DNA from: a virus
Strand: one strand, 5' to 3'
DNA length: 21,885 bases
Virus record (IMG/VR): IMGVR_UViG_3300025120_000645
Location: 1 to 21,885 of that record
Each line of letters starts with the position of its first letter. Positions within the stretch are counted from its first letter, which is position 1. Shown in pieces: positions 2,314 through 9,925 of the stretch. The notes under the pieces were generated by a model, which saw only the letters and a list, made by a program, of their open reading frames with translations, made no database searches and was not told the origin of the DNA. The position numbers and the translations under genes are program-made.

Positions 2314-4314
2314 ATGACAAACACTAAAGTACAAAGTGAACAGATAGCAGATGATGCTGTTGTAACATCACATATAGCAGATAGCGTAGGTTTGGGAGGA
2401 TCTCCTACTACGACAACTCAATCTGCAAGCGATAACTCTACCAAGATCGCTACAACCGCTTATGTTGATGCGGCGTTTACTGCTTTGGTTGACTCTTCTC
2501 CAGCTGCTTTAAATACGCTCAATGAGCTTGCGGCGGCACTAGGTGATGATGCTAACTTTAGTACGACAGTTACTAATTCTATAGCCACAAAGCTACCGCT
2601 AGCAGGTGGCACTATGACAGGTGATTTGATACTCGGTGATGATGTAAAAGCTATCTTTGGAGCTGGTTCAGATTTACAGATTTATCACGATGGTAGTAAT
2701 AGCTTTATAGATAACAGCTCAGGAAGTCTAACAATAGATTCAGGGGTTCACCTATTTATTAAAAATGTTACTGGTGAATCACTTGCGAATTTTTTGGCAA
2801 ATGATGCGGTAGAACTGTACTACGATAATGCTAAAAAACTAGCCACAACCTCATCAGGTGTAGACGTAACAGGAACTCTTACAGCTACAACACTAGCAGG
2901 AACATTATCTACAGCAGCACAAACAAATATAACAAGTTTAGGTACTCTTACTTCCCTTACAGTAGACGATATAACCATTAATGATTCTACTATTTCTGAT
3001 GCAGCCAATTTTACTATAGACGTTGGTGGAGATATTATTCTTGATGCTGATGGTCAACAAATATTTTTAAAAGATGGTGGGGTATCTTTTGGTATGCTTT
3101 CAACAGATAGCACTCCTTCTGATTTTATTATTAGTTCTAGGGTTGACGACAAAGATATAATATTTAGAGGTATAGATGGTAGTTCTGATATTACTGCGTT
3201 GAGACTTGATATGTCTGATGCAGGTAAGGCTGTCTTTAATTCAGGAGCAGAGTTTCATGGTCTTGTAGACAATCAAATTTCTCACTCATCCACAGATGTA
3301 ACAGAAGCTAATTCCAATGCCACACTGCGAATTGGAAACGTAGCAGCAGGTAATGGCATTTACAATGCAATTAAGTTTTCAGCGAACCAACAAGATATGT
3401 ATATCATGTCTTTTAATAATAGCGCACAAGCCGACAGACGAATGGGTTTCTTTTTAGGCTCTGTTGCAGGTGATGCGGTTGCTGACGAAAGATTATCTAT
3501 CAGAGGTGACGGAAAAGTAGGCATAGGTACTACGAGTCCTGCTCATAATCTTCATGTGGTTTCATCAGGTAATGCAGAATTAGAGATTGAAAGAACAGGT
3601 GGCGCGGCAGTATTTACACAAGCACAATCTGCTTTAGGTGTTACTGGAACTTCTTCAAATCACGATTTTGGTTTACTAACTAACGGTGCTGTAAGGATGC
3701 GTATTGATAACACAGGAAGTGTTTTTATGGGAGGAACATCTGGTTCTTTTAATGCAAGGCTGACTCTTGAAAGAGAGACTTATAGTATTGAATCAAGAAG
3801 CACAGGAACAGGTAGTGAAGGTCATGTTGTATTTAGAAATGGTAATGGTGCTGTAGGTTCAATATTTACAAATGCATCAGCAACAGCTTACAACACCTCT
3901 TCAGATTATAGATTAAAAGAAAACGTAGACTACACATGGGATGCAACTACACGATTAAAACAATTAAAACCTGCAAGATTTAATTTTAAAAATGATGCTG
4001 ATAATACAGTTGATGGTTTCTTAGCACATGAAGTAGCAAGTATTGTTCCTGAGTCTATTACTGGAACAAAAGATGCAAGCGAAACTAAAACAAATTGTGT
4101 GTTAATGGCAGGTGGTAGTGTATTTGCAGATGGTGTTACTGAAGCAGAATGGACACAAGGCAAAACAGATGGTACTTACGAAAGTGATACAACTTGGGTA
4201 GCAAGCAAAACAGAAGCTGTTTATCAACAAATAGACCAAGCTAAATTAGTACCTCTGTTAGTTAAAACTATACAAGAACTAGAAGCAAGAATTAAAACTC
4301 TAGAGGAATCTTAA
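2314..4314 (+). CDS. Tail fibre 2 with C-terminal peptidase S74 chaperone domain
   Basis: A complete 666-residue fibre. The N-terminus (TNTKVQSEQIADD, then GGSPTTTTQSASDNSTKIATT) is closely related to that of fibre 1, as is the following LPLAGGTMTG segment. The middle carries DLQIYHDGSN and TLAGTLSTAAQTNITSLGTL motifs, widespread in marine phage fibres, then one GKVGIGTTSP unit. The S74 domain begins at SSDYRLKEN: Ser530 and Lys535 are the expected dyad, releasing about 137 residues. The domain has an insert relative to fibre 1 before the shared terminal coiled coil QELEARIKTLEES. The likely role is an adhesin assembled as a trimer. The stop codon overlaps the ATG of a short remnant of a further fibre gene. 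Two adjacent fibres could bind different receptors or form one composite fibre; sequence alone does not decide. Confidence 0.94.
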   Translation: MTNTKVQSEQIADDAVVTSHIADSVGLGGSPTTTTQSASDNSTKIATTAYVDAAFTALVDSSPAALNTLNELAAALGDDANFSTTVTNSIATKLPLAGGTMTGDLILGDDVKAIFGAGSDLQIYHDGSNSFIDNSSGSLTIDSGVHLFIKNVTGESLANFLANDAVELYYDNAKKLATTSSGVDVTGTLTATTLAGTLSTAAQTNITSLGTLTSLTVDDITINDSTISDAANFTIDVGGDIILDADGQQIFLKDGGVSFGMLSTDSTPSDFIISSRVDDKDIIFRGIDGSSDITALRLDMSDAGKAVFNSGAEFHGLVDNQISHSSTDVTEANSNATLRIGNVAAGNGIYNAIKFSANQQDMYIMSFNNSAQADRRMGFFLGSVAGDAVADERLSIRGDGKVGIGTTSPAHNLHVVSSGNAELEIERTGGAAVFTQAQSALGVTGTSSNHDFGLLTNGAVRMRIDNTGSVFMGGTSGSFNARLTLERETYSIESRSTGTGSEGHVVFRNGNGAVGSIFTNASATAYNTSSDYRLKENVDYTWDATTRLKQLKPARFNFKNDADNTVDGFLAHEVASIVPESITGTKDASETKTNCVLMAGGSVFADGVTEAEWTQGKTDGTYESDTTWVASKTEAVYQQIDQAKLVPLLVKTIQELEARIKTLEES

Positions 4315-4346
4315 TGGCAAACACAACAGTACAAAGTGAGGTGTAA
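4314..4346 (+). pseudogene. Remnant N-terminus of a third tail-fibre gene
   Basis: Immediately after fibre 2 (TAATG overlap) a 10-codon frame reads MANTTVQSEV and then stops at 4344-4346. It matches the fibre 2 start, MTNTKVQSEQ, at protein and DNA level (about 21 of 25 bases around the start). It looks like what is left when a third tandem fibre copy was lost or truncated by recombination. It may now act only as a leader that carries the ribosome-binding region (gaggtg at 4338-4343) for the gene starting at 4350. Confidence 0.7.
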
Positions 4347-4349
4347 GGG

Positions 4350-4700
4350 ATGGATGACGCAGTCTTACTTATATCAGAGTTGGGTGTGCCTACTGCGGCC
4401 CTAGTAGCCGTTGGATTTTTTCTCTACAAACTTATATTTAAGATCATTGATGGCATGACTGAAAAGGTAGATGTTTTAGATGATAAGGTGCAAGCAAGTC
4501 TAGATACAATGGAAGAAAGATTAACGACTAAACTAGATTCACAATATGGGATTATAGTCAGCTTGATTGACAGGGTAAGAATGATTGATCAATCACTCTT
4601 AAGAAATGATGTGTTACTCAAAACCTTAGTAAAAATGCCTGAGTTGATAGATACCAACGAAATAACTAAGGCACAAAAAGAAGATCAAAGAAAAGACTGA
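4350..4700 (+). CDS. Small membrane-anchored coiled-coil protein
   Basis: A 116-residue protein with one N-terminal membrane segment (about residues 14-36, TAALVAVGFFLYKLIF). A heptad-rich, charged region follows (about 37-75), then a polar tail ending KEDQRKD. No enzyme motif is visible. The size and layout fit accessory lysis proteins (holin- or antiholin-like, or a membrane tether), but I do not recognise the family. A separate three-TM holin follows the cassette at 9443. The gene starts 3 bases after the fibre remnant, and its stop is directly followed by the csgF start (TGAATG), suggesting co-translation. It is not CsgE: it has neither a cleavable signal peptide nor CsgE-like sequence. 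Confidence 0.8.
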   Translation: MDDAVLLISELGVPTAALVAVGFFLYKLIFKIIDGMTEKVDVLDDKVQASLDTMEERLTTKLDSQYGIIVSLIDRVRMIDQSLLRNDVLLKTLVKMPELIDTNEITKAQKEDQRKD

Positions 4701-5162
4701 ATGACCGGAACTGAAATGAAATTAATATTAGTTAATACAATATTTTTTATTTTTTTATTTCAGGTGTTATATGCAGATCAGATGGTGCATAAATTTAAGA
4801 ATCCAAGTTTTTCTGGCAACGGTACATCTAATCATTATTTTTTTACTGAACAGACAGAGTTTCAAAGAAAAGAAGCAATACGTGAAGAGATAAAGGCTTA
4901 TCAAGACGAACTGGCCAGAGAAGCGGAAAACACTACGCTAGCTAGATTTATTCGCAATCTTGAATCACGCATCTATGCACAAATTTCGCGTCAATTAGTA
5001 GAGAGTTTATTTGGCGAAACCGCTTCTGAGTTTGGTTCATTAGAGCTCGAAGGCAACACAATAGAATACGAAGTAGAAGACGATAAAATTACATTAACGA
5101 TTACAGATGAAAATGGAGATACTACGGTCATTACCGTTCCTTTGGGTTCTTTTACTTTCTAG
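4701..5162 (+). CDS. csgF: CsgF-like curli assembly factor
   Basis: A 153-residue secreted protein. A signal peptide (about residues 6-25, ending QVLYA before DQM) makes the internal ATG at 4716 an equally plausible start. Mature residues 26-56 match the part of CsgF that inserts into the CsgG pore: HKFKNPSFSGNGTSNHYFF against the E. coli pattern FxFRNPxFGGNPxNGxxLL. A charged helical middle (about 54-105) is followed by a C-terminal beta region, LTITDENGDTTVITV, similar to the E. coli end. In the known system CsgF lines the extracellular side of CsgG and places the nucleator at the surface. The last 18 codons overlap the csgG signal-peptide region in another frame. The family call is by eye but rests on the diagnostic N-terminal motif and on csgG following directly. 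Confidence 0.88.
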   Translation: MTGTEMKLILVNTIFFIFLFQVLYADQMVHKFKNPSFSGNGTSNHYFFTEQTEFQRKEAIREEIKAYQDELAREAENTTLARFIRNLESRIYAQISRQLVESLFGETASEFGSLELEGNTIEYEVEDDKITLTITDENGDTTVITVPLGSFTF

Positions 5163-5970
5163 CTGTACGTTAAAATATGACGATCTTTTAAATAGTGGTG
5201 GTGTACCTAACATAACTGTAAAACCAGCCACAATTACAGATCTACAGTCTAAAGAATTAAAAGAAGTAATACCGCCAAAAAGAAAACCTACTATAGCGGT
5301 TTACCCAACAAGTTTTACTGACCAGACAGGCCAAAGAAAAAGCAACAGTGAGTTTGCTTTATTTAGTACAGCAATTACACAAGCTCCGCATGCTTATCTA
5401 ATTAGAGCTCTAAAGCACGCTTCAGATGGAAACTTTTTTCAAGTCATTGAACGTATTGGTTTAGATAACTTAGTCAAAGAAAGAACATTAATAAGATCCA
5501 CCAGAGAAGGATTTAAGCAAAAAGAGCTTGGACCACTTTTACATGCAGGATTGTTGTTAGAGGGTGCGGTCGTAGATCTATCAACCAACGCTAAATCTGG
5601 TGGGATGGGAGCTCGCTGGCTAGGAGTTTCTTCTAGCTCTCAATACAGAGTAGATACCGTGCAGATATCACTGAGACTTATATCAGTTTTGACTGGTGAA
5701 GTTTTGATAGAAGTAGGTAGCTCTAAAACGATCTTATCAAAAACGATTTCACAAGACTTGTTCAGGTTTATAGAACTTGGGACCGAACTCATTGAGATCG
5801 AAGGTGGTTTTGCGGAAAACGAAAGCGTTTCTTTAGCATTGCAAAAAGCAGTAGAGAAATGTGTGTTAGAAATTATAAACATAGGATACCGGCGAGGGTA
5901 TTGGGAACATGAAAAAATTATTATTGAGCCTAGCTGCGATGACGAGTGCATTGCTGTTATACGCGGCTGA
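5107..5970 (+). CDS. csgG: CsgG-like outer-membrane curli secretion lipoprotein
   Basis: A 287-residue lipoprotein. Its signal peptide ends in a lipobox, LSSC, giving lipidated Cys20. It aligns with E. coli CsgG over most of its length: IAVYPTSFTDQTGQ, ERIGLDNLVKERTLIR, NAKSGGMGARWLG, SLRLISVLTGEVL, SKTILSK and FRFIE. CsgG forms a nonameric barrel that exports curlin subunits by diffusion, with CsgE and CsgF as partners. In the constriction loop, the Phe56 equivalent appears kept (F86), while the Asn55 position looks like Leu (L85) and the loop is one residue longer (by-eye alignment). The C-terminus after RGYWE diverges and holds two Cys (C277, C281); this end is overprinted by the next gene's signal peptide. 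It begins inside csgF (56-base overlap) in the +1 frame, which argues for coupled translation. Confidence 0.95.
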   Translation: MKMEILRSLPFLWVLLLSSCTLKYDDLLNSGGVPNITVKPATITDLQSKELKEVIPPKRKPTIAVYPTSFTDQTGQRKSNSEFALFSTAITQAPHAYLIRALKHASDGNFFQVIERIGLDNLVKERTLIRSTREGFKQKELGPLLHAGLLLEGAVVDLSTNAKSGGMGARWLGVSSSSQYRVDTVQISLRLISVLTGEVLIEVGSSKTILSKTISQDLFRFIELGTELIEIEGGFAENESVSLALQKAVEKCVLEIINIGYRRGYWEHEKIIIEPSCDDECIAVIRG

Positions 5971-6628
5971 TAGCGAAATTTATATTGATCAGAGCGGTGG
6001 TACTGCTTTGAATTTAGACATTGAACAGATCAATGGATCTGGAAACCTTATTGGTGGTGCAACAGCTACTGCTGGTTCTATGACACCATTAGATTTAGAT
6101 GGCGCATCTATGAGCTTAGACGTTTTGCAGAAAGGCTCAAATAATAAATACTTAGGCGATATTTGGGCTGACAGTTACACAGGGTATTTTTCTTTCCTTG
6201 GTTCAACAAACACTTTCAACATGCAAACAGATCCAACAAATACTTATGGGGCTGATTCTTCTGACGTAAACGTACAGGTAACAGGAAGCTCGAATAATAT
6301 GACACTTAATCAGGCCACAAATGCACTTGCAGCTACATTAAATTTAGACTGGATCATTCAAGGTTCAAACAACACCGTAACATCTTCTATAGATATAGAC
6401 GGTGCAACTAACTATATGGACATTGATGGTTCAGACAATGCTGTCACCTACGATGGAGACGGATACGCAGGCGGCTACTTTTGGCTAGACCATACTGGAG
6501 GATCAAGAACATTCAACATTACACAACAATCAACATCAGACAATGACTGGCTCAAAATTACATCTAATGGTTCTAATGGGACTATCTGTGTCAATCAGTC
6601 TGATTCCGCAACGTCTTTCGTGTGCTGA
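5909..6628 (+). CDS. Secreted curlin-like repeat protein, candidate CsgG substrate
   Basis: A 239-residue protein with a clear signal peptide (MKKLLLSLAAMTSALLLYAA, cut before DS). The mature part is acidic, rich in Asn, Gly, Ser and Thr, and built of degenerate strand-turn-strand units resembling curlin repeats: IEQINGSGNLI (38-48), VLQKGSNNKYLG (72-83), VQVTGSSNNMTLNQ (122-135), IIQGSNNTV (149-157) and FNITQQ followed by NGSNGTICVNQ (202-230). The canonical S-x5-Q-x-G-x2-N-x-A-x3-Q spacing is only partly kept. Two Cys near the end (C227, C239) could form a disulfide. The position directly after csgG, in a 62-base overlap in the +1 frame, makes it the likely exported fibre subunit (CsgA/CsgB-like). 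Whether it forms amyloid is not shown by sequence. A gcgaggg stretch 7-13 bases upstream supports this start. Confidence 0.8.
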   Translation: MKKLLLSLAAMTSALLLYAADSEIYIDQSGGTALNLDIEQINGSGNLIGGATATAGSMTPLDLDGASMSLDVLQKGSNNKYLGDIWADSYTGYFSFLGSTNTFNMQTDPTNTYGADSSDVNVQVTGSSNNMTLNQATNALAATLNLDWIIQGSNNTVTSSIDIDGATNYMDIDGSDNAVTYDGDGYAGGYFWLDHTGGSRTFNITQQSTSDNDWLKITSNGSNGTICVNQSDSATSFVC

Positions 6629-7655
6629 TTCTATAGGAGCAGTATCAGAGCTTAACGGCAACGCGCAAATAGAAAGAGACGGATTTTATAATGTTGCATT
6701 AAATTTTGGCATAGAGCAGCTAGACAATGTAAAGACAGCAGCCGGTAGACTTAAGATTACTTTTTTGGATGACTCTAAAGTATCTTTGACAGAACACTCT
6801 GAATTAAAGATTACTAAATACATTTTTAATCCAGATCCTCAAAAGTCAGAACTAGCACTCAAGTTTACAAGAGGTACAGCAAGGTTTGTAACCTCACAAC
6901 TTGGCAAGATAGCCAAACAAAACATAAAGCTATCGACAGAAGTGGCTGATATTGCGATCAAGGGAACGGATTTTACAATCACTATTGATGAGCTAAATAG
7001 AGCACTTTTGGTTCTATTGCCGGATCCTATGGGCCTAAGTAGTGGTGAAATAGAAGTTACTACGGCAATGGGTACAGTTATATTAAACCAACCGTTTCAG
7101 GCAACTACAGTATCTTCATACGTAAGTATGCCGACACCTCCGGTCGTTTTAGATATTAATCTAAATATGATTAATAACATGTTAATTGTGTCGGAGCCTG
7201 AAGAAGATGAAGAGCAATCTGAAGAATCGGACACAAGATCTGTAAACGTATTTTTAGATTTTAACGAACTAGATATTGATGCACTTGAAGACGATTCATT
7301 AGATCAAGATCAACTTGAATTTACAGAGCTTGACATAGATGCATTACAGGTTAATTTTCTTGAAGATCTTCTAAATGTATTAGATTCTTTAGCCATCACG
7401 CAAGAAGAAGATCAATTAGGCATTGCGACTGGTATAAAAATTACCGGTACCGAAATAGGACAAGATAAAGATACGCAGATCACGACACTAATACAGGGTC
7501 AAATGATTAGCTTTAGACGTAATGTAGGCAATTCATTGAGATTAGATCTTGATGGCGGTAACAGTTACACACTGACTATGTCGCAAAACAATGTGACCAA
7601 AGTTGTAACCGTCAATGGCGGCAATAATTCAACCATAAATATCACGCAACAATGA
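6543..7655 (+). CDS. Exported FecR-domain protein with acidic linker and curlin-like C-terminus
   Basis: A 370-residue protein. A signal peptide ends near RLSCADS (residues 24-30). Met1, Met9 (6567) and Met12 (6576) are all possible starts; Met9 gives a more typical length. Residues about 60-150 form a FecR-type domain: VKTAAGRLKITFLDDSKVSL, LTEHSELKI, FTRGTARFVT, and then VADIAIKGTDFTI. FecR domains act in the periplasm, in siderophore signalling and often in surface or sensor systems. Residues about 216-290 are an acidic linker with a 20-residue tandem duplication (ELDIDAL at 242 and 262). Residues about 325-370 form Asn/Gln/Thr-rich short strands ending NNSTINITQQ, like the curlin-like neighbour's FNITQQ. 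The gene overlaps the curlin-like gene in the +1 frame, and its stop overlaps the cyclase start (ATGA). It is probably an adaptor between fibre and sensor (inference). Confidence 0.85.
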   Translation: MTGSKLHLMVLMGLSVSISLIPQRLSCADSIGAVSELNGNAQIERDGFYNVALNFGIEQLDNVKTAAGRLKITFLDDSKVSLTEHSELKITKYIFNPDPQKSELALKFTRGTARFVTSQLGKIAKQNIKLSTEVADIAIKGTDFTITIDELNRALLVLLPDPMGLSSGEIEVTTAMGTVILNQPFQATTVSSYVSMPTPPVVLDINLNMINNMLIVSEPEEDEEQSEESDTRSVNVFLDFNELDIDALEDDSLDQDQLEFTELDIDALQVNFLEDLLNVLDSLAITQEEDQLGIATGIKITGTEIGQDKDTQITTLIQGQMISFRRNVGNSLRLDLDGGNSYTLTMSQNNVTKVVTVNGGNNSTINITQQ

Positions 7656-9433
7656 ATAAAACATTACAGTGGTTAAGCTTAACAACAATATTAGCTTTAC
7701 CTCTGCTGTTTCAGTCAACTTTTACTGAAATATTAAAGCTAAGGACTTTTGATTACTTGATAGAACGTCCAGAGTCTTCTGGAGTCTTTGTGGTAGTCAA
7801 TTTAGAAGAGCAGGATCTAGCAGATTATGGAGGCTGGCCCTTAAAAAGATCTGATTTAGCAAAAATCCATATGGATCTGTTAAACAGCGGAGCTTTAGGT
7901 GTGGGATATGGCATTAGTTTTAACTATCCTGACCGATTTGGTGGCGACGATGAATTTGCTAGTGCACTAAGAATCTATCCTAGTCTGCTTTCTATGTTTG
8001 AAAGAGACGATGGAACCGTACCAAGGCCGCACGGAACTGTATTACTAGGCCCAGAAGTTGACGGTCTGTCTATAAAAGGTGTTATTGAAAACATAGATAC
8101 CTTGAAAAATGCTGCTCAACAAGGACTAGTGTCAGCTCCATTGGATAAAGATGGTTTAGTTCGCAAGATTCCTTTGGTTTACAAAAGCAATGACGCTTGG
8201 GTGGCTAGTTTTGGTGCTCAGATACTTAAAATACTGACTCAAAGCTCTACATATATTATAAAAACAAGTGAAAATGGGATACAGGAAGTAACCGTACAAG
8301 GATTACCTCCAGTAAAAACAGATTCGCTTTCTAGAGTGTGGTTAACGTGGGCAAAAACATCACAAACTACGTTGAAAAATGCAAAAGTAGATGGTAAATT
8401 TGTCATACTAGGAACAAATTCTGCTGGCATACTTCCACAAATATCAACTCCAGTAGGATTACTAGAACCCCACCTAATTCAAGCAGCTCTAGCAGAGCAA
8501 ATGCTTATTCCTAACTCTCCATACATACCAGATTGGAGTCTAGCAGCAGAACTAGCTATATATGGTCTTACAGTAGGCTTTATTTGGCTATTTTTGAATG
8601 TTTTTGGCATAACATTTGGTTTTATATTAAGTGTTTCTACTATGGCTCTAACGGCATTTATAGGAGTCCATTTAGTAAGCAGAGGTTTGCTTCTAGATGT
8701 AAGTTGGTCATTGATTTCTGGATTTATTACTGGATCTGTAGCTTCATACTTGAACTACCGAACACAGTACAAGTTAAAACAGCAAATCAAAGCTCAGTTT
8801 GGCAAGTTTGTATCACCAGATGTTGTAGCTGAGTTGCAGGCACATCCTGAAAAATTAAGATTAGGCGGTGAGCGCAAAGAGATGTCGTTCCTTTTCATGG
8901 ACATTGTAGGATTTACCCCCGTTTCGGAATTTTACTCACAAAAAGACGATCCTGAAGGCTTGGTGGATCTGGTCAATAACTTCTTGGATAGAATGACAAA
9001 AATTTTGTTGGCTAGGCAGGGAACCATTGACAAGTATATGGGCGATTGCATCTTTTGTTTTTGGAATAGTCCTTTAGACACTGAAAAACACGCTGAACAA
9101 GCAGTATTAGCGGCCAAAGAATTAGAAGAAGAAGCCAGAATAATTAATGAAGAGTTTGTACAGCAAGGCTTACCTGAGATCAAAATTGGTACAGGAATTA
9201 ACACAGGTACGACTATTGTTGGTATGTATGGAAGTGAATTAAGATTGGATTATTCAGTCATGTCTGATGCGGTTAACTTAGCCGCTAGATTAGAAAGCCA
9301 AACTAGAAATTACGATTGCGACACGCTCATATCAGAGCATACGGTCGCTCAAGCACCTGATATATCTTTTACGTTTGTAGATGAAATACAAGTAAAAGGC
9401 AAAGAAGAAAGGGTAAAGGTTTACACAATATAA
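7652..9433 (+). CDS. CHASE2 sensor fused to class III adenylate cyclase
   Basis: A 593-residue inner-membrane receptor. One N-terminal membrane segment (about 6-22) is followed by a periplasmic CHASE2 domain (about 30-285; LRTFDYLIERP, YGGWPLKRSDLAKIH, SFNYPDRFGGDDEFA). Three closely spaced membrane segments follow (about 297-318, 320-342, 350-367), then a cytoplasmic class III cyclase domain (about 408-593). Metal-binding Asp417 (FLFMDIVGF) and Asp465 (KYMGD) are present, as are the transition-state Asn542 and Arg546 (DAVNLAARLE). Lys461 and Ser535 occupy the purine-specifying positions. Lys with Thr/Ser, in place of Asp, is the class IIIb pattern, so ATP to cAMP is expected; bicarbonate-responsive cyclases belong to that class. 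All catalytic residues are intact, so an active enzyme is likely. The gene overlaps the FecR gene by 4 bases. FecR and CHASE2-cyclase pairs occur in bacteria; in a phage this is unusual. Confidence 0.95.
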   Translation: MNKTLQWLSLTTILALPLLFQSTFTEILKLRTFDYLIERPESSGVFVVVNLEEQDLADYGGWPLKRSDLAKIHMDLLNSGALGVGYGISFNYPDRFGGDDEFASALRIYPSLLSMFERDDGTVPRPHGTVLLGPEVDGLSIKGVIENIDTLKNAAQQGLVSAPLDKDGLVRKIPLVYKSNDAWVASFGAQILKILTQSSTYIIKTSENGIQEVTVQGLPPVKTDSLSRVWLTWAKTSQTTLKNAKVDGKFVILGTNSAGILPQISTPVGLLEPHLIQAALAEQMLIPNSPYIPDWSLAAELAIYGLTVGFIWLFLNVFGITFGFILSVSTMALTAFIGVHLVSRGLLLDVSWSLISGFITGSVASYLNYRTQYKLKQQIKAQFGKFVSPDVVAELQAHPEKLRLGGERKEMSFLFMDIVGFTPVSEFYSQKDDPEGLVDLVNNFLDRMTKILLARQGTIDKYMGDCIFCFWNSPLDTEKHAEQAVLAAKELEEEARIINEEFVQQGLPEIKIGTGINTGTTIVGMYGSELRLDYSVMSDAVNLAARLESQTRNYDCDTLISEHTVAQAPDISFTFVDEIQVKGKEERVKVYTI

Positions 9434-9442
9434 GGAAAACTT

Positions 9443-9925
9443 ATGAAATTTAAAGCTATCAAAGGTTTGATTGGCGCGGTTGCTCCTACGCTTGGATCCG
9501 CATTGGCAGGTCCTATGGGCGGTATGGCGGCTAATCTAGTAGCAGAAGCTCTAGGTTGCGATCCTGAGCCGAAAAAAATAAATCAAGCTATGCAAGCAGC
9601 TACACCAGAACAGTTAGCAGAACTTAAAAAAGTTGAAACTGATTTTGAAGTAAGAATGAAAGAGTTAGAAGTTGATATCTTTGCACTAGAAACAGCAGAT
9701 GTCCAAGACGCTAGAAATAAATTTTCTAAAGATTGGACTTCTAGAATCATGGGTACGCTTATTGTGTGTGGTTTTTTGGGTTACATATTTATGGTAACGC
9801 TACAGCCACCAGAACAAAATTCCGAGGCATTGATTAACTTAGTGCTTGGCTACCTTGGAGGCTTGGCATCCGCTGTGATTAGTTTCTATTTTGGAAGCAG
9901 TCACAAACCTGATAACGATAATTAA
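9443..9925 (+). CDS. Three-TM holin (GTA-type holin family)
   Basis: A 160-residue protein. Residues 8-37 form a Gly/Ala-rich hydrophobic segment (IGAVAPTLGSALAGPMGGMA), followed by a charged helical region (about 55-95) and two further membrane segments: MGTLIVCGFLGYIFMVTL (about 108-126) and LINLVLGYLGGLASAVISFY (about 131-150). The end SFYFGSSH is characteristic of the 3TM holin family first noted in gene-transfer agents. Its role would be to permeabilise the inner membrane at the end of infection. It has a good ribosome-binding site (aagga at 9432-9436), which overlaps the cyclase stop codon. Confidence 0.85.
   Translation: MKFKAIKGLIGAVAPTLGSALAGPMGGMAANLVAEALGCDPEPKKINQAMQAATPEQLAELKKVETDFEVRMKELEVDIFALETADVQDARNKFSKDWTSRIMGTLIVCGFLGYIFMVTLQPPEQNSEALINLVLGYLGGLASAVISFYFGSSHKPDNDN

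Follow-up and report, generated by a model that had tools for sequence, protein, structure and literature searches.

A CHASE2-adenylate cyclase of mosaic ancestry at the end of a phage curli cassette

A gene for a CHASE2-adenylate cyclase is located at positions 7652-9433 of IMG/VR virus record IMGVR_UViG_3300025120_000645, in a stretch of 21,885 nucleotides (positions 1 to 21,885 of the record) that is called the window below. The gene closes a phage curli (type VIII secretion) cassette. The best explanation of the data, to which we assign a probability of roughly 45%, is that its product is an inner-membrane receptor that makes cyclic AMP (cAMP), controlled by its periplasmic CHASE2 domain, and serves as the signalling output of the cassette. 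By identity profiles and tree placement, the protein is a mosaic, in which a podovirus-type sensor is joined near residue 384 to a catalytic half of pelagimyophage type.

Results and discussion

The cyclase within the curli cassette

Of 164 loci, 91 have all five families (csgF, csgG, curlin, FecR and cyclase) together, in one order and on one strand. The remaining 73 loci comprise 62 that are cut by the locus end (including ten whose first gene is a second curlin), 10 that have no cyclase, and one Acinetobacter record. The IMG/VR scans covered the best 80 of 293 loci and the best 80 of at least 573 loci. One scan was based on csgG, so its loci were chosen regardless of the cyclase; here a cyclase follows FecR in 54 of the 64 judgeable loci, and 16 further loci were not judgeable. 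A third scan returned nine loci, eight of them new and outside the 164, and half of these eight (4/8) also carry csgF, csgG, curlin and FecR.

Standing at the end of a cassette that was already known, the cyclase is neither a lone moron gene nor a new auxiliary metabolic gene. Nor is it supported as a novel kind of phage gene: a cassette with FecR and adenylate cyclase genes was described in 2022 in phages of SAR11 and OM43 bacteria (Wittmers et al., PMC9599517), and a phage-encoded adenylate cyclase is in itself not new. No other report of a phage adenylate cyclase was found in the literature searched.

The genes of the cassette and those at its borders are as follows.

4350..4700, + strand: small membrane/coiled-coil gene (by eye), directly 5' of csgF; phrog_18771, 5e-11
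4701..5162, + strand: csgF; Pfam CsgF, 3e-20
5107..5970, + strand: csgG, the outer-membrane curli pore; Pfam CsgG, 7.6e-47; lipobox-like start (by eye)
5909..6628, + strand: curlin-like fibre subunit; all-beta, solenoid-like AlphaFold2 model
6543..7655, + strand: FecR-domain protein; Pfam FecR, 1e-8, residues 62-147; signal-peptide-like start (by eye)
7652-9433, + strand: CHASE2-adenylate cyclase open reading frame, 593 amino acids, last gene of the cassette
7652..8803, + strand: sensor half of the cyclase, with a helix at residues 2-19, CHASE2 to residue ~295, and helices at 296-317, 319-343 and 351-384
8804..9433, + strand: linker and class III adenylate cyclase domain, residues ~385-593
9443..9925, + strand: small membrane protein, holin-like by eye, directly 3' of the cyclase; phrog_1544, 8e-27

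The window CsgG and two homologues from phages were combined into a profile, which matches structures of E. coli CsgG at 3e-62. The AlphaFold2 model of the curlin-like protein has about 18 strands (mean predicted local distance difference test score, pLDDT, 86.9); its comparison with the PDB gave no significant match (best E 0.24). Homologues of this protein in HTVC008M and Melnitz are annotated as CsgB or curlin repeat, and Pfam Curlin_rpt matches 6 of 45 homologues, the window protein not among them. The FecR profile had no match in the PDB at E 0.01. Upstream of the cassette, a homologue of the gene at 4350-4700 ends at most 150 bp from csgF in 46 of the 69 csgG-scan loci with enough upstream DNA. 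Pfam found no histidine-kinase domain in this gene, and it had no match in the phage collection searched.

The ATG of the cyclase gene overlaps the stop codon of the FecR-domain gene (ATGA), and such gene overlaps suggest co-transcription. They are also consistent with an alternative in which cAMP acts solely as feedback on the phage's fibre cassette, adjusting its expression or assembly as in enteric curli control, an analogy also made by Wittmers et al. (PMC9599517). We consider this quite unlikely. A Pfam scan of ten window proteins returned neither CRP nor another protein that binds cyclic nucleotides (cNMP). Promoter and terminator signals in the window do not rise above shuffled controls, and the enteric regulator CsgD is described in PMC9599517 as absent from the phages studied there. 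No RNA family was found in the window, and no tRNA was found in the window or in seven extra phage stretches.

Two matches in Acinetobacter 'phage' records were set aside: they are short catalytic-domain matches only, and the record that was opened looks like bacterial chromosome. GenBank record L004, labelled Acinetobacter phage MD-2021a (CAKLQH020000011.1), has mfd and isc genes flanking the cyclase and resembles a piece of bacterial chromosome. Record OR851715.1 (1,499 bases, labelled Salmonella phage) has a csgG match and may be host DNA.

Anatomy and active site of the cyclase

The cyclase matches Pfam CHASE2 over residues 12-309 (E=5e-27) and Guanylate_cyc over residues 409-592 (E=1.2e-17), and both sequence matches are far above chance level. 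The AlphaFold2 model of the protein (51 sequences; mean pLDDT 90.7, predicted template modelling score 0.75) consists, in order, of the helix at residues 2-19, a mixed alpha/beta CHASE2 domain, three long helices, and the catalytic domain. As modelled, this is the layout of a CHASE2 receptor, with the domain between an N-terminal helix and three further predicted membrane helices. The CHASE2 sensor with a complete set of membrane segments that had been proposed from the sequence is thus borne out by the Pfam match and the predicted helices.

Structure comparison of the model is informative for the catalytic part; it barely covers the sensor half, for which we make no claim about a CHASE2 fold. 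The closest solved structures of the catalytic part include PaCyaB (3r5g; Z 26.9, rmsd 1.6, 183 aligned residues, 37% identity) and CyaC (Z 25.8). These are the cyclases of Pseudomonas aeruginosa (CyaB) and Spirulina, which we take to be members of class IIIb.

All the catalytic residues that the original prediction named are present in alignments: Asp417 and Asp465 (metal), Asn542 and Arg546 (transition state), and Lys461 (purine). Present too is the Ser that it placed at the second purine position (Ser535), where the aligned PaCyaB and CyaC have Thr. Judged by its residues and predicted fold, the protein is a class III nucleotidyl cyclase of the adenylate type. In class IIIb, Thr or Ser replaces Asp at the second purine position, and the enzymes are stimulated by bicarbonate. 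Ser535 supports a IIIb-like assignment on the residue criterion. Together, this anatomy and an enzyme of the adenylate-cyclase type are very likely to be correct.

The same features characterize the family. Its 135 full-length phage proteins include two copies of the window protein itself and HTVC008M twice; 111 are distinct, and 44 represent the set at 85% identity. The five catalytic residues are kept in 134 of the 135. At the second purine position, 110 proteins have Ser, 24 have Thr, and one has Asp, so that Ser or Thr is the family rule (134/135) and the intact, IIIb-like class III cyclase of the original prediction is supported in this respect. The sole exception is the Melnitz cyclase (L003, 8902-10965), in which the catalytic Asn is replaced by Ser and the second purine position is Asp; this cyclase is possibly inactive or altered.

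The residues also bear on which nucleotide is made. PADLOC models of PycC match (best 3.8e-19; three window proteins scanned), as might be expected if the product were cUMP or cCMP, as for PycC, or else cGMP; one conceivable use would be to mislead host defence as a decoy. Such a product is very improbable. The class III fold is common to the PycC models, and the purine-specifying Lys is found in all 135 phage proteins, whereas the guanylyl cyclase Cya2 has Glu in the alignment.

Over 965 non-independent pairs of relatives, median dN/dS is 0.073 for the catalytic half and 0.235 for the sensor half, which points to strong purifying selection on the catalytic half. These ratios and the conservation of residues across phages are comparative evidence for function, beyond what one sequence gives. 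The earlier proposal that an intact sensor implies selection for regulated activity is therefore upheld as to selection for function; as to regulation, one intact sequence alone does not imply it.

Separate histories of the sensor and catalytic halves

Over residues 1-375, the identity of the window cyclase is 53-54% with the nearest podovirus-type rows and 24% with HTVC008M. Over residues 403-593, it is 63% with HTVC008M and 34-43% with the nearest podovirus-type rows. The cumulative match count turns at residue 384, where the final helix preceding the catalytic domain ends. In trees with a bacterial outgroup, the sensor half groups with the podovirus type (support 100), and a myophage placement is rejected (log-likelihood, lnL, 113.7 lower, p=6e-7). 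The catalytic half, in a careful tree, groups with the myophage type and locus L127 (100/98), and a podovirus placement is rejected (lnL 27.8 lower, p=0.005). Both of these trees omit Melnitz and three long-branched bacterial rows. Tests without bacterial rows rejected neither a grouping of the window with podovirus catalytic halves (p=0.60) nor one with myophage sensor halves (p=0.12). We hold the latter tests to be uninformative because, in trees that have no outgroup, the window can slide along one long inner branch.

When the sensor and catalytic halves of 133 proteins were typed by nearest reference, 80 were myophage type in both halves and 38 were podovirus type in both, 12 combined a podovirus-type sensor with a third catalytic type, 2 combined a podovirus-type sensor with a myophage-type catalytic half, and 1 was ambiguous. 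The pair with the podovirus/myophage combination is the window and L127, and the ambiguous protein is that of Melnitz. The third catalytic type forms a long branch nested among the podovirus catalytic halves, and may have evolved fast within their clade instead of coming from a separate source. Its bearers are found at three separate places when the sensor halves are arranged in a tree: L086 is next to the window, L100 next to L127, and L141 next to L157. The window and L127 could have kept an older catalytic half that was replaced in other podovirus types; the trees are compatible with a swap in either direction.

Two relatives allow the cassettes to be compared gene by gene. L086 is akin to the window as a phage (portal 54%, putative capsid protein 56%, terminase 45%), and its cassette is 78% identical in csgF, 79% in csgG, 92% in curlin and 72% in FecR; its cyclase, at 47%, is of the third catalytic type. 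The L085 cassette has 75% identity in csgF, 79% in csgG, 91% in curlin and 66% in FecR, and has no cyclase. Between these cassettes it is thus the receptor that has been replaced or lost, and the fibre genes are conserved.

In L085, the closest relative of the window cassette, an integrase-like gene on the opposite strand (by eye) comes after FecR (2854-5500). A position next to an integrase is a usual location of lysogenic conversion genes.

Bacterial relatives and origin

The best 80 of at least 567 confirmed bacterial CHASE2 cyclase loci were taken with flanks of up to 10 kb, often shorter. The proteins are 27-41% identical to the window cyclase in the best segment. Among these 80 loci, the phage FecR profile matches in the fetched flanks of 28, and the csgF, csgG and curlin profiles match in none (0/80). 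Conversely, csgF is present in 3 of 289 alphaproteobacterial genomes, with csgG adjoining in 3/3, and neither FecR nor a CHASE2 cyclase lies within ~10 kb of csgF in any of the three (0/3). Direct uptake of the cassette as a unit from the present host is thus not supported by the bacterial flanks or by the csgF loci. The original prediction had called for a phylogeny that would find the donor lineage. Two phage cyclase lineages could be traced, joined as a mosaic, and the donor question proves more complex than it was posed.

A candidate relay from fibre to receptor

In all 86 FecR homologues, the last 20 residues contain the motif [ILV]x[ILV]xQ (mean 8.4 and maximum 17 in 200 shuffles), and the same motif is found in 84 of 87 curlin proteins. 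This curlin-like tail suggests that the FecR protein is an adaptor between the fibre and the receptor.

With somewhat less assurance than the general link between cyclase and cassette, we largely infer the following relay. A curli-like fibre would be displayed through CsgG/CsgF during infection or lysogeny, so that the pore and fibre form the outer-membrane element. The secreted FecR protein, with its fibre-repeat-like tail, would be a periplasmic adaptor that reports the state of the fibre or pore to CHASE2. CHASE2 would keep the cyclase off until the FecR report arrives, and cAMP would then act on host cNMP-binding proteins. The relay is drawn by analogy with the Sinorhizobium meliloti and Burkholderia systems described below and with the FecR matches near bacterial CHASE2 cyclases (28 of the best 80 of at least 567). 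More doubtful is the broader picture of a self-contained trans-envelope circuit in marine phages, running from the curli pore and fibre through the FecR adaptor to CHASE2, with cAMP as the readout of fibre or contact state. In this picture the type of sensor is kept, the catalytic domain is exchanged beneath it, as in the window chimera, and the output evolves separately.

The cyclase might instead work independently of the fibre, its cAMP reprogramming host transcription (catabolite control) or delaying or triggering lysis, and CHASE2 sensing an environmental or host signal. We regard this as unlikely, and the targets named in the original prediction, catabolite control and lysis timing, gained no support here. 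The enzyme is intact by its residues, and cNMP-binding domain proteins are found in 32/32 genomes from the order to which one alphaproteobacterial relative belongs. However, that order may not be the host's, and this domain family is broad and is also present in 10 of 14 control genomes. A lysis role is suggested by the holin-like gene (phrog_1544), which directly follows the cyclase here and in 12 csgG-scan loci, and a lysis role for csgGF is proposed by the authors of the Melnitz report. In 15 other csgG-scan loci, though, the holin-like gene is 5' of csgF, both with and without a cyclase. The linkage of the cyclase to csgF, csgG, curlin and FecR across phage families argues instead for a function within the cassette.

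Several observations count against the cyclase as the signalling output of the cassette. Of the 64 csgG-scan loci that could be judged, 10 have no cyclase after FecR, L085 among them, and fibre display can therefore do without the enzyme. The curlin profile touches 80/86 FecR tails at a relaxed cut-off (best 6e-4), and the reverse search, from FecR tail to curlin, touches 12/87 (best 0.2). In S. meliloti, the FecR-domain gene is reported not to be required for perception. The tree of the sensor half came from a quick search and carried long-branch warnings. Finally, residue 538 (codon 9263-9265) is Gly in 132 of the 135 phage rows and in each of the 22 bacterial relatives that were checked; the three remaining phage rows, which are the window protein and its two copies, have Ser. 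Ser538 is thus a caution on the predicted cyclase activity.

A substitution at an otherwise constant Gly could mean that the cyclase is being lost in this virus, the chimeric join and Ser538 having left an inactive or unregulated enzyme. Relatives that have no cyclase (L085) or no catalytic Asn (Melnitz) fit such a course. The chance of it is slim, since the frame is open across 593 codons, the five catalytic residues are kept, the predicted fold is confident, and the family is under strong purifying selection.

If the relay from fibre through FecR to CHASE2 is correct, phages of the ocean, a number of which are probably temperate, would equip their hosts with a sense organ and a second-messenger input that originate from the phage. 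The mosaic shows that, in such receptors, sensor and output do not share one history. What a phage gains from cAMP while infecting abundant marine bacteria becomes a testable question. The chimera, the separate histories of its halves, and the idea of a curlin-tailed FecR adaptor are worth following.

The virus

The assignment of the window to a phage, made earlier from its sequence, is corroborated by a gene of the internal virion protein family phrog_511 within the window and by an IMG/VR contig of 45,584 bases (L254) that is identical to the window across 13,240 bases, with zero mismatches. This contig encodes a terminase and a portal by best hits, and a putative capsid protein by eye. It also contains a tyrosine-recombinase-like gene (L254 7657-8763; NCBIfam best 3e-12, below curated cut-offs), which makes the phage probably temperate. 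The virus is probably a temperate, podovirus-like phage. The nearest portals, at ~32-35%, are those of HTVC033P, HMO-2011, and Roseobacter and Sinorhizobium phages. The hosts of these matches are SAR11, Roseobacter, Puniceispirillum and Sinorhizobium.

Two tail-fibre-like genes with repeats are located at 84-2312 and 2314-4314, and their C-termini resemble S74 intramolecular chaperones (by eye). When two structural proteins of the window were compared with the phage collection, one matched 170 records (best 35%) and the other matched none.

Comparison with known systems

PaCyaB and CyaC share the catalytic fold and residues of the window cyclase, with Thr at the position of Ser535, and the match is to the catalytic part alone.

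In S. meliloti, the CHASE2 cyclases CyaD1, CyaD2 and CyaK are reported to raise cAMP when a plant protein is sensed via the outer-membrane barrel NsrA, and Clr belongs to the same system. A CyaD1 construct that lacks CHASE2 is described as producing cAMP constitutively. By its locus number, the FecR-domain gene SMc02177 adjoins cyaD1 (SMc02176). This system shares with the window a CHASE2 receptor cyclase, a nearby FecR-domain gene, and an outer-membrane barrel upstream of the signal. It differs in that its genes are bacterial and its signal comes from a plant, and the passages that deal with it do not mention curli genes. The BiofilmReg operon of Burkholderia, which is linked to biofilm, encodes a FecR protein and a CHASE2 histidine kinase. 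As in the window, a periplasmic FecR-domain protein is combined with a CHASE2 receptor, but the output is a histidine kinase; the terms 'adenylate cyclase' and 'curli' have 0 occurrences in the main text of the BiofilmReg paper. Further literature cited for this analysis is PMC9004378, PMC7029224, PMC5192318, PMC13001267 and PMC5498481.

The closest parallel is the type VIII secretion (curli) module of pelagiphages. PMC9599517 describes it in nine podovirus genomes of the HTVC023P type and in myoviruses, and infers an alphaproteobacterial origin and transfer between viral families. The term 'CHASE2' has 0 occurrences in its main text. A tree built from the whole gene blends the history of the sensor with that of the catalytic domain, and this affects the interpretation of the published cyclase tree. 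Earlier papers treat csgGF in pelagimyophages and Melnitz, and the word 'cyclase' has 0 occurrences in their main texts. HTVC008M has the same gene order with an annotated adenylate/guanylyl cyclase, and so does Melnitz. In PMC9599517, the gene before csgF is named a histidine kinase; the window gene at 4350-4700 occupies that place and has no Pfam kinase domain. The window differs in its phage lineage, in its integrase-like gene, and in a catalytic half of the other viral type. It shares with the pelagiphage module the order csgF-csgG-curlin-FecR-cyclase and an occurrence in marine podo- and myoviruses.

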